64,000 nt of DNA, taken from NCBI RefSeq assembly GCF_900167025.1, contig NZ_FUXC01000002.1, positions 124,001 through 188,000 on the forward strand. The letters run 5' to 3'. Position numbers and translations under genes: made by a program. The stretch comes from Treponema berlinense (GTDB taxonomy: Bacteria > Spirochaetota > Spirochaetia > Treponematales > Treponemataceae). Positions 47,182 to 49,710 of the stretch are shown one piece after another (position 1 is the first letter of the stretch; each line of letters starts with the position of its first letter). The notes beneath the pieces are model-generated. The model was not told the DNA's origin and searched no databases. It saw only the letters and a list, made by a program, of their open reading frames with translations.

Positions 47182-47235
47182 AATCATATTTTCTGTTTTA
47201 GATAAAAAATTTATAAAAAAAATGTTAATTCCCTG

Positions 47236-47313
47236 CTGTATAAAAAAGTGTACGGTTTTGAAAAACTGTATAAAAAAATGAACGATTGTTAAATTTTTTG
47301 TAAAAAAGTGGAC
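47236..47313. repeat. Three phased repeats upstream of adhE
   Basis: Plus-strand CTGTATAAAAAAGTGTAC (47236-47253), CTGTATAAAAAAATGAAC (47266-47283) and TTGTAAAAAAGTGGAC (47298-47313). Spacing is 30 and about 32 bp, close to three helical turns, so the copies lie on one DNA face. This 453-bp divergent gap (47131-47583) has no gene; it also carries the adhE -10 and the sigma-54 promoter. Confidence 0.6.
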
Positions 47314-47423
47314 ATTTCGATTTTTTGTGTTATAAGGGCAAAAAATAAAAAAAAACAAAATAATTACTTGTATTACAAATAAATATAAAAAACAGCTTTT
47401 GTTTTGAGAATTGGATTAAAAGT

Positions 47424-47438
47424 TGGCACGATTCTTGC
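47424..47438 (+). promoter_or_regulatory. Sigma-54 (-24/-12) promoter of the sigma-factor gene
   Basis: TGGCAC (47424-47429), five bases, TTGC (47435-47438), within TTGGCACGATTCTTGCAT: an exact match to the RpoN consensus with the GG and GC doublets 12 bp apart. Transcription should begin near 47450. This implies control by RpoN and an enhancer-binding protein. Confidence 0.85.
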
Positions 47439-47466
47439 ATTATATAAAATGACGACATTTGTTTTA

Positions 47467-47569
47467 AAAGTTTGCGTTGCAAACTTTCTTATCATCTGTT
47501 GTTTCTCACTTCGTTGCGGAACAACTTAAAAAGTCAATCCTAAAACTGAAGTTTTAATCTTGACTTTTT
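47467..47569 (+). other. Structured 5' leader of the sigma-factor gene
   Basis: Three hairpins in a row: AAAGTTTGC-GTT-GCAAACTTT (47467-47487); GTTGTTTC/GGAACAAC (47498-47525); and AAAAAGTCAA/TTGACTTTTT (47528-47569) with an inner AAAACT-GA-AGTTTT. The last stem ends 4 nt before the GGGAGG Shine-Dalgarno. It might set translation efficiency or, with its T-rich 3' arm, act in termination; this is inference. Confidence 0.6.
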
Positions 47570-47583
47570 ATGGGAGGCAAAAA

Positions 47584-48405
47584 ATGGAAATTCTTGAAAC
47601 ATATATAAAGCAGATAGGAAGATATCCTCTCTTAAATGCAGAGCAGGAGAAAAAACTTTCTGAACAGATTGAAAAAGGAAGTGCCCAGGCTGTAAATCAA
47701 CTTGTAAATTCAAATTTGAGGCTTGTTATAAGCATTGCCAGAAAATTTTTATGCACTTCAAAAAATTCGATAATGGATTTGATTCAGGAGGGAAATTTGG
47801 GGCTTATGGCGGCGGCTTCAAAGTATCATTATTCTTTTAATACTAGATTTTCGACTTACGCATACAGTTGGATTTTGCAGTATATGCTTCGCTATGTTTA
47901 CAACAAAACTTCAATGATTGCTCTTCCTCATCGAAAAGAAGAGCTTTTGCGTAAGATTGTTGCCGCAAAAAACGAATATAAGCAGAATTTGAACCGCGAG
48001 CTTTCTGTTCCAGAACTTGCCGAAATCTGCGGAACAACTCCTGAAGAGATAGAGTCAGTTCTTTCGTATTCTTATACAATTACAAGCATAGACATTGAAG
48101 CTTCTGAAGACGGAAATGTGACAATCGGAGATTTAATCGTGGACAACAGTTACAATCCTGAAATTGAATATCTGCGCGTTCATGAAAAAAATCAGATTAA
48201 AAAGATGGTTGATTCTCTTCCTGAGTTTGAACGCAAAGTTATTTATGGAAGATATAATTTTAAAAACGACCTGCATGTTCCGACTTTGCGCGAATTAAGC
48301 GCGGATTTGGGAGTGAGCGCGGAAACTGTCCGTCAGATGGAATTGAGGGCCATAAAGAAGATGAAAAAATATGCAGACTCGTTGAATGAATTCAGTTTTG
48401 CCTGA
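47584..48405 (+). CDS. Sigma-70-family alternative RNA polymerase sigma factor
   Basis: 273 residues from ATG 47584 (GGGAGG upstream); a TTG at 47560 would cover the Shine-Dalgarno. Region 1.2/2.1: TYIKQIGRYPLLNAEQEKKL and LVNSNLRLVISIARKF. Region 2.2-2.4: DLIQEGNLGLMAAASKYHYS and FSTYAYSWILQYMLR. Region 4: LPEFERKVIYGRYNF and LRELSADLGVSAETVRQME (helix-turn-helix). It lacks the long region 1.1 of the main sigma factor, so it is a group 2/3 factor; whether RpoS- or RpoH-like is unclear. The upstream sigma-54 promoter is its most telling context. Confidence 0.9.
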   Translation: MEILETYIKQIGRYPLLNAEQEKKLSEQIEKGSAQAVNQLVNSNLRLVISIARKFLCTSKNSIMDLIQEGNLGLMAAASKYHYSFNTRFSTYAYSWILQYMLRYVYNKTSMIALPHRKEELLRKIVAAKNEYKQNLNRELSVPELAEICGTTPEEIESVLSYSYTITSIDIEASEDGNVTIGDLIVDNSYNPEIEYLRVHEKNQIKKMVDSLPEFERKVIYGRYNFKNDLHVPTLRELSADLGVSAETVRQMELRAIKKMKKYADSLNEFSFA

Positions 48406-48468: not shown

Positions 48469-49710
48469 ATGAAAACTCAAAAAAACTCAAATTCGCCGTC
48501 AAAAAAAACAAAAAGAACTTCTATGCGCCGCAGAAAAGTTAAAAAAGTTAAACTCGACAAAAACAAAGTGACGGTTTTGTGCGGAATTATTTTTTTGATT
48601 TGCTGTGTTTGCATTGCTGTAAATGTTTTGTCTCAAAGCGCGAAGGCAAAAAATATTGCGGAAATTGCAAAAAGCGAAAAAAAAACAGAACAAAGACAGC
48701 AAAACTCAGGTGAATTAGGCAAAACTCAAAAAAAGAAGGAAGTTTCTGATTCAAAAGAGTTAAAAAAATCGGCAGATTCTGCTAAAAAAGACGAAAATTC
48801 TAAAAACGTAAATAAAACTTCTCAAAAACAAAATGCGGATTCTAAAAAAAATCCCGCAAAATCTATAGAAAATACAAATAAAATTCAAACGGAAAATAAA
48901 AATATTCAAAAAACGAAGCCTGAAATCGAAAATAAAAACAAGACTGTAGAAAATCTTGAAAAATCCAAAAAAAATGAGCAGATTCAAAACAAAGAAAAAA
49001 AACAGGATTTGCCGTTTTTAATTCCTCCGGCGCAAAACGGAGCGACTTTGGTTTTTGTAATTGACGATGCCGGAATGAACGCAGAATACACAAAAAGATA
49101 CGCTTCGCTGCCGTTTCCGCTTACAATTGCTGTTTTGCCGAAACTTTTGCATTCAAAAGATTGCGCATACATTGTCCGTTCTTCAGGAAAGGAACTTATT
49201 TTGCACCAGCCGATGCAGTCATTAAACCATAATCTTGACCCGGGACCTGGAAAAATCAGTGTTGATATGAGTTTTTCGCAAATCAGCTCAATTATAAATG
49301 AAAATCTTGCGGAAATCGGACCTGGCGTAAAAGGTTTGAATAACCACGAGGGAAGCGAAGTTACCGAAGATGTTTTGAGAATCGGGGCTGTTTTAGATGT
49401 TTGTCTTGAAAATAAAATTTATTTTTTGGACAGCAGAACGACTGCCAATACAAAGGCTCCTCAGGCTGCCATTGAGCGGGATATGACGATTTTTGAAAAA
49501 TCAGGGCCTTATATTGACAATATCGTTTCGCGCGAGGCTATGCTCAAAGAAATCTATAAATCTTTGGAAGCGGCAAACAAAAATGGAAGTGCGATTGTGA
49601 TTGCCCATGTTGATAAAAGCGCGGAAATTTTGCCAAAACTTCTTGAACAGATGTATCCTTATCTGCTTAAAGCAGGCTATAGGTTTGCAACTCCTTCAAC
49701 GCTTCGTTAA
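48469..49710 (+). CDS. Divergent polysaccharide deacetylase (YibQ family)
   Basis: 413 residues. A basic start, one TM helix (about 32-50), a Lys/Asn/Glu/Gln-rich disordered stretch (about 60-180), then a YibQ-type domain: ATLVFVIDDAGMNAE with the metal-binding DD, LPFPLTIAVLPKL, KELILHQPMQ, KGLNNHEGSEVTED and FLDSRTTANTKAP, plus IVIAHVDKSAE. Probably acts on periplasmic polysaccharide or peptidoglycan; the substrate is unknown. No clear Shine-Dalgarno. Confidence 0.88.
   Translation: MKTQKNSNSPSKKTKRTSMRRRKVKKVKLDKNKVTVLCGIIFLICCVCIAVNVLSQSAKAKNIAEIAKSEKKTEQRQQNSGELGKTQKKKEVSDSKELKKSADSAKKDENSKNVNKTSQKQNADSKKNPAKSIENTNKIQTENKNIQKTKPEIENKNKTVENLEKSKKNEQIQNKEKKQDLPFLIPPAQNGATLVFVIDDAGMNAEYTKRYASLPFPLTIAVLPKLLHSKDCAYIVRSSGKELILHQPMQSLNHNLDPGPGKISVDMSFSQISSIINENLAEIGPGVKGLNNHEGSEVTEDVLRIGAVLDVCLENKIYFLDSRTTANTKAPQAAIERDMTIFEKSGPYIDNIVSREAMLKEIYKSLEAANKNGSAIVIAHVDKSAEILPKLLEQMYPYLLKAGYRFATPSTLR

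Follow-up and report, generated by a model that had tools for sequence, protein, structure and literature searches.

A conserved sigma-54-type promoter and predicted enhancer upstream of an RpoS-clade sigma factor gene in Treponema berlinense and other spirochaetes

In the 64,000-nucleotide stretch of the Treponema berlinense genome analysed here (hereafter the window), an alternative sigma factor gene of the sigma-70 family, designated sigma A, is preceded by a -24/-12 element that is almost certainly a real promoter and, farther upstream, by a conserved dyad, ACTGTATA-N6-TATACAGT, predicted to be an activator-binding site (Table 1). Taken together with a single rpoN gene and a GAF-AAA+-Fis activator gene elsewhere in the genome, and with the conservation and co-occurrence of these elements as read in spirochaetal genome sequences, this layout makes it probable that RpoN and the GAF-type activator together drive sigma A. 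A preliminary description of the locus had reported an exact TGGCAC-N5-TTGC match some 145 bp ahead of an alternative sigma factor gene devoid of region 1.1. The match was found again (TGGCACGATTCTTGC, 47424-47438, plus strand), the -12 element lies 145 bp from the ATG at 47584, and the protein consists of Pfam sigma-70 regions 1.2, 2, 3 and 4 only, with a Shine-Dalgarno sequence upstream of its start. The RpoN-to-sigma cascade proposed on that occasion, with RpoN dependence of the gene and a regulon for the second sigma factor of the chain, would build on these features.

Table 1. Features of the sigma A locus (window coordinates) and candidate sigma-54 activator genes of the same genome
Feature	Position	Strand	Basis
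Enhancer dyad 1, GCTGTATAAAAAAGTGTACGGT, predicted activator-binding site	47235..47256		20.0 bits (all-promoter profile); 18.3 bits (distant-spirochaete profile)
Enhancer dyad 2, ACTGTATAAAAAAATGAACGAT, 30 bp past dyad 1	47265..47286		11.3 bits; 30-bp direct repeat
Possible third dyad copy, weak and uncertain, 30 bp further	47295..47316		5.9 bits
Predicted sigma-54 promoter, TTGGCACGATTCTTGCA (-24 and -12 elements)	47423..47439	+	Genome's only perfect match; kept in 48/49 orthologues
TD-1-like structured leader, three hairpins, ending in the Shine-Dalgarno sequence	47463..47576	+	Dispersed copies; compensatory pairs; Rfam TD-1
Shine-Dalgarno sequence, GGGAGG	47572..47577	+	Sequence
Sigma A (spirochaetal RpoS clade), 273 aa, regions 1.2-4, no region 1.1	47584..48405	+	Pfam; tree
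PF04748 divergent polysaccharide deacetylase, conserved downstream neighbour, synteny marker	48469..49710	+	Pfam
GAF-AAA+-Fis activator, T. denticola TDE2079 family (L008)	Contig 29, ~69.3-70.9 kb		
REC-AAA+-Fis response regulator, NtrC/AtoC/Rrp2 type (L009)	Contig 13, 248.9 kb		
Short AAA+ activator without HTH (L010)	Contig 9		

The short motif was discarded as evidence by itself, its six genome copies equalling those of a reversed control pattern. The extended consensus TTGGCACG-N4-TTGCW is matched at all 13 defined positions by the window's site, which, as TTGGCACG-N4-TTGCA, is the sole perfect 17-bp sigma-54 site of the 2.52-Mb genome (33 contigs, the window covering 124001-188000 of contig 13), against approximately 0.09 perfect copies expected genome-wide from base composition. 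What sets the promoter above chance is its conservation before orthologues. A hand-made sigma-54 weight matrix was run over 49 spirochaetal orthologue loci (33-73% identity), and in 48 of them the 450 bp upstream of the gene contained a site scoring 12.9 bits or more, at a background of 0.0105 sites per 400 bp of the same loci; none of 30 non-spirochaete relatives (Bacillota, Patescibacteria and others) had an upstream site of at least 12.9 bits. In 31 of these loci the sigma gene is followed by PF04748 and/or tsaD, a synteny that agrees with their orthology. Loss of the motif from relatives keeping the gene had been named beforehand as grounds for abandoning the sigma-54 reading; since the motif was kept, this comparison came out in its favour. 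In the alignment of 49 sites (the 48 and that of the window), TGG at -24 and TG at -12 are invariant and the 10-bp spacing is fixed. With its GG/GC cores 10 bp apart, rpoN and activators in the genome and conservation before orthologues, the site is a predicted promoter of the sigma-54 class, from whose position transcription would be expected to start near 47450.

The predicted enhancer emerged from a profile-free count of dyads over the 200 bp preceding each of 48 sites, compared with local shuffles: GTAT-N8-ATAC occurred in 19 of the 48 upstream regions (0.55 expected), TGTA-N10-TACA in 14 (0.4 expected) and CTGT-N12-ACAG in nine (0.05 expected). The three nest and thus yield the combined dyad, a symmetrised profile of which reached at least 10 bits in 42 of 49 promoters, lying approximately 105-240 bp upstream of the promoter itself, as against 1% of shuffles. 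Because this profile was built from the promoters it scored, another was made with 20 distant spirochaetes as its sole training set; this recovered the dyad in 23 of the 28 Treponema promoters held out and in 1.8% of shuffles, and within the distant set the dyad began 107-118 bp before the -24 element in 17 of 19 cases. Of random AT-rich stretches drawn from these loci, which can overlap the promoters themselves, 7.5% reached 10 bits, and none of 3,000 local shuffles attained the score of 20 of dyad 1 in the window. A good dyad is absent from seven of the 49 promoters (L033 and L039-L041, for example), and a profile scan found none upstream of the second sigma gene described below (clade B), RpoD, Borrelia rpoS or hsp20. 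We note that in Treponema sp. RGIG6705 (L031) the -24/-12 site and the enhancer dyad have both been lost while the sigma gene and its neighbours are retained.

The best NCBIfam models for sigma A are of the RpoS and RpoD types, all scoring far under their cut-offs (181.5 bits for the curated RpoS model, against a cut-off of 378.7). A sigma factor tree with Borrelia RpoS and E. coli RpoH and RpoS, as the preliminary description had suggested, was built from 67 rows, including the RpoS proteins of two Borrelia-like genomes (0.9 Mb, one contig). Sigma A groups with Borrelia and apart from E. coli: the spirochaetal sigma A proteins and Borrelia-like RpoS lie on one side of a branch with 99/99 support, and E. 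coli RpoS, RpoD and RpoH, spirochaetal RpoD and Bacillota relatives on the other. Identification of sigma A as a proteobacterial RpoS was rejected on account of both the curated cut-off and this branch, as was a pairing of Borrelia RpoS with E. coli RpoS (AU p 0.005). The Borrelia-like branch is long, and Borrelia is placed within or beside the sigma A clade; an AU test with Borrelia outside the clade was set aside, since the topology permits a basal position. The Borrelia-like rpoS genes have a -24/-12 site as well, and an RpoN promoter before rpoS is known experimentally in B. burgdorferi (PMC3037356). The likeness to Borrelia, at first described as a parallel, is thus better read as common descent, given the shared clade and a layout found class-wide: judging from tree and promoters, sigma A and Borrelia RpoS are homologues under the same kind of promoter and no mere analogues.

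A search of the genome for rpoN and for an NtrC/Rrp2-like activator, both sought in view of the earlier proposal, returned one copy of the former and three clear sigma-54 activators (Table 1). All three are of the NtrC family, and the likely one, judged by phyletic pattern and by the dyad, is the GAF-AAA+-Fis protein and not the Rrp2-type response regulator. All nine genomes compared have the REC type, irrespective of sigma A; the GAF type occurs in each of the five that have sigma A and is missing from the four that do not. Extending the comparison to 297 genomes of the class, under presence cut-offs chosen post hoc on bimodal E-values (below 1e-84 for sigma A, below 1e-20 for the GAF activator), gave 143 genomes with both, 122 with neither, 16 with sigma A only and 16 with the GAF activator only. 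The association has a Fisher p of 2e-35 when Borrelia-like genomes, which score sigma-negative under the 1e-84 cut-off, are excluded, a value that overstates the case because the genomes are related. Incomplete MAGs account for many of the 32 discordant genomes, G275 and G234 being exceptions. Within the window's own family, the GAF activator accompanies sigma A in 26 of 26 genomes and is absent from seven of the nine without it. The presence of rpoN itself proved uninformative as a co-occurrence test, the gene being found in 287 of the 297 genomes, and in none of the orthologue loci examined does an activator gene adjoin the sigma gene. The GAF activator gene lies between cmk/rpsA and the gene of a TPR-like protein (names by similarity), an order that is conserved and corresponds to TDE2080-TDE2079-TDE2078 of T. 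denticola (PMC3914990).

Two peculiarities of these activators deserve mention. The sigma-54-contacting loop of the GAF-type proteins L008, L226, L230, L231 and L233 reads GAFTDA in place of the usual GAFTGA, and a short activator ATPase with no recognisable DNA-binding domain is present in eight of nine genomes (L010, L235, L236, L240, L241, L244, L246 and L247).

The window's genome encodes a further region-1.1-less sigma factor, of clade B (contig 25, L015), whose gene is preceded by a -24/-12 promoter sequence, TTGGCATAGTTCTTGCT, 347 bp before the ATG. Sites of 16-21 bits precede the clade B genes L187, L188, L190, L193, L194, L195 and L200, the last of these, which we take to correspond to TP1012 of the T. 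pallidum annotation, belonging to a T. pallidum-like 1.1-Mb genome without sigma A. Published primers for T. denticola TDE0937 match the clade B loci L191 and L192 with zero to two mismatches; TDE0937 is induced 2.8-fold by heat, 21.8-fold by oxygen and 14.0-fold by osmotic downshift, and an Hsp20 gene is induced like it by these stresses (PMC2965109). In the window's genome, a strong intergenic sigma-54 site, TTGGCACACTTTTTGCT, lies 55 nt upstream of an Hsp20 gene (contig 21, 1964-1980, L105). Other near-perfect sites were dismissed as members of a regulon, most being intragenic and the hsp20 site alone clearly intergenic and well placed. We also note that the approximately 480 bp upstream of the clade B gene in L015 apparently accommodate two different hairpin-rich leaders in tandem, each ending in TTTTATGGGAG, between the -24/-12 site and the ATG.

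Both sigma promoters of two T. denticola-like genomes carry TTAGCAY-N5-TTGCT where TTGGCAY is otherwise found, and the RpoN box of five genomes of the T. denticola-like genus reads AVRTVNKYR rather than the ARRTVAKYR or ARRTVNKYR seen elsewhere. The helix of the RpoN box reads the -24 element, and a joint change would be expected if RpoN reads both sigma promoters; the R to V replacement and the TTAGCAY element (L183, L184, L191, L192 and L250-L254) may possibly reflect a shift in sigma-54 specificity. Being confined to one lineage, the co-change counts as a single event.

The sigma-54 site begins 161 bp before the ATG in the window, compared with 30-100 bp in most orthologues, a longer leader that is due to a dispersed element at 47463-47576. 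The element occurs in approximately 25 copies of at least 50 bp in this genome and is missing from the nearest orthologue, L020. Eighteen of 20 copies examined (L130-L149) end 4-16 nt before start codons of varied genes, and in most of those examined the Shine-Dalgarno sequence lies inside the element itself. In many copies, a Shine-Dalgarno-like sequence is found in the 5' flank as well, as if the element inserted at ribosome-binding sites. An alignment fold of the copies gives three hairpins with 33 pairs, nine of which show compensatory change. Like the Rfam TD-1 RNA (RF03155), the element stands upstream of genes, and it aligns to that model across its full length; unlike accepted members, it scores 49 bits in the window and 50-60 bits in three other copies against a gathering score of 64.5, so that it would appear to be a diverged TD-1 relative rather than an accepted member of the family. 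When the window's leader is folded to minimum energy (z -3.1), the 3' arm of hairpin 1 is paired with the Shine-Dalgarno sequence instead, from which one might speculate that the leader acts as a translation switch. An element of this TD-1-like kind also precedes the second sigma gene of the genome.

In the mechanism that we favour, the predicted sigma-54 promoter would be the main promoter of sigma A, at which RNA polymerase bearing RpoN would be held in a closed complex. The GAF-AAA+-Fis protein, bound to the dyad repeats at 47235-47316, would loop onto the polymerase and open the promoter by ATP hydrolysis, the sigma A product would then redirect polymerase to a regulon of its own, and the TD-1-like leader, which holds the ribosome-binding site, may add translational control. 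We infer promoter occupancy, RpoN dependence, the acting activator and its signal, and the regulon of sigma A from the arrangement of the locus and its conservation. An activator of another kind is conceivable, namely the REC-AAA+-Fis protein of contig 13, with the dyad serving a different regulator. It is a response regulator, Rrp2, that activates rpoS in Borrelia (PMC3037356, PMC12655853), and the REC type is found in the window's genome as in every other genome of the nine; its equal presence in the four genomes devoid of sigma A, where the GAF type tracks sigma A, and the want of a dyad before Borrelia rpoS, on which Rrp2 is reported, in the title of a reference in PMC3037356, to act independently of an enhancer, make us regard this possibility as unlikely.

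The promoter itself might be of an ordinary sigma-70 kind, composed of TTGGCA (47423) and TAAAAT (47445-47450), its likeness to sigma-54 sites being incidental. A consensus scan does return TTGGCA-16-TAAAAT with 10 of 12 matches, yet such hits are equally common in shuffled sequence (7 vs 6.1), and the invariant TGG/TG core and fixed spacing run through all 49 aligned sites whereas a -10 hexamer at suitable spacing accompanies three, which leaves this reading scarcely credible. Somewhat less remote, though still highly improbable, is that an ancestral sigma-54 promoter has ceased to be the main control of the gene, the TD-1-like insert having added a promoter or decoupled expression. The leader's length, far in excess of that of most orthologues, and the similar element before the second sigma gene are in line with such a change; the perfect -24/-12 site and strong first dyad of the window speak against it, as does the content of the insert, namely a Shine-Dalgarno sequence and hairpins, with no plus-strand promoter listed within it by the consensus scan. 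Activation of sigma A by RpoN and the GAF-type protein, which would bind the dyad and act on the sigma A promoter, thus remains the preferred explanation.

Several spirochaetal systems invite comparison. Closest is Rrp2-RpoN-RpoS of B. burgdorferi, where a sigma gene of that clade, likewise devoid of region 1.1, follows directly on an RpoN promoter (PMC3037356, PMC12655853). The treponemal side differs in its conserved enhancer dyad and GAF-type candidate activator, as opposed to a response regulator reported to work with no enhancer, in having a second sigma gene under the same type of promoter, and in having no known BosR-type input. TDE0937 of T. denticola, a stress-induced sigma gene (PMC2965109), resembles sigma A in lacking region 1.1 and in having a -24/-12 site, here a variant one; unlike sigma A, it belongs to clade B and has no enhancer dyad. 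Leptospira EbpA-RpoN also pairs an activator with RpoN in a spirochaete, the reported targets being amtB and lipoprotein genes and no sigma gene (PMC12655853). RpoS has been reported as missing in Treponema (PMC2965109), and our search of the open literature (subscription journals lay outside it) found no description of an RpoN-to-sigma link in this genus.

Most of the spirochaete class appears to possess a switch from RpoN to a second sigma factor, and in treponemes a different activator seems to operate it through a conserved DNA site of its own. We would give even chances to the broader proposition that RpoN is a sigma-factor switch across most Spirochaetia, driving sigma A through the GAF activator and ACTGTATA-N6-TATACAGT and genes of the TP1012/TDE0937 type through another activator, and that Rrp2-RpoN-RpoS of Borrelia is a derived form that has shed both enhancer and GAF activator. 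RpoN-to-RpoS is a central virulence switch of Lyme Borrelia and, were it ancestral to the class, its origin would become traceable. Treponema would at the same time gain a candidate regulatory chain made of RpoN, a TDE2079-type activator, a defined enhancer and two sigma factors, of which the T. pallidum-like genome retains one arm only, the clade B sigma factor with its -24/-12 site.
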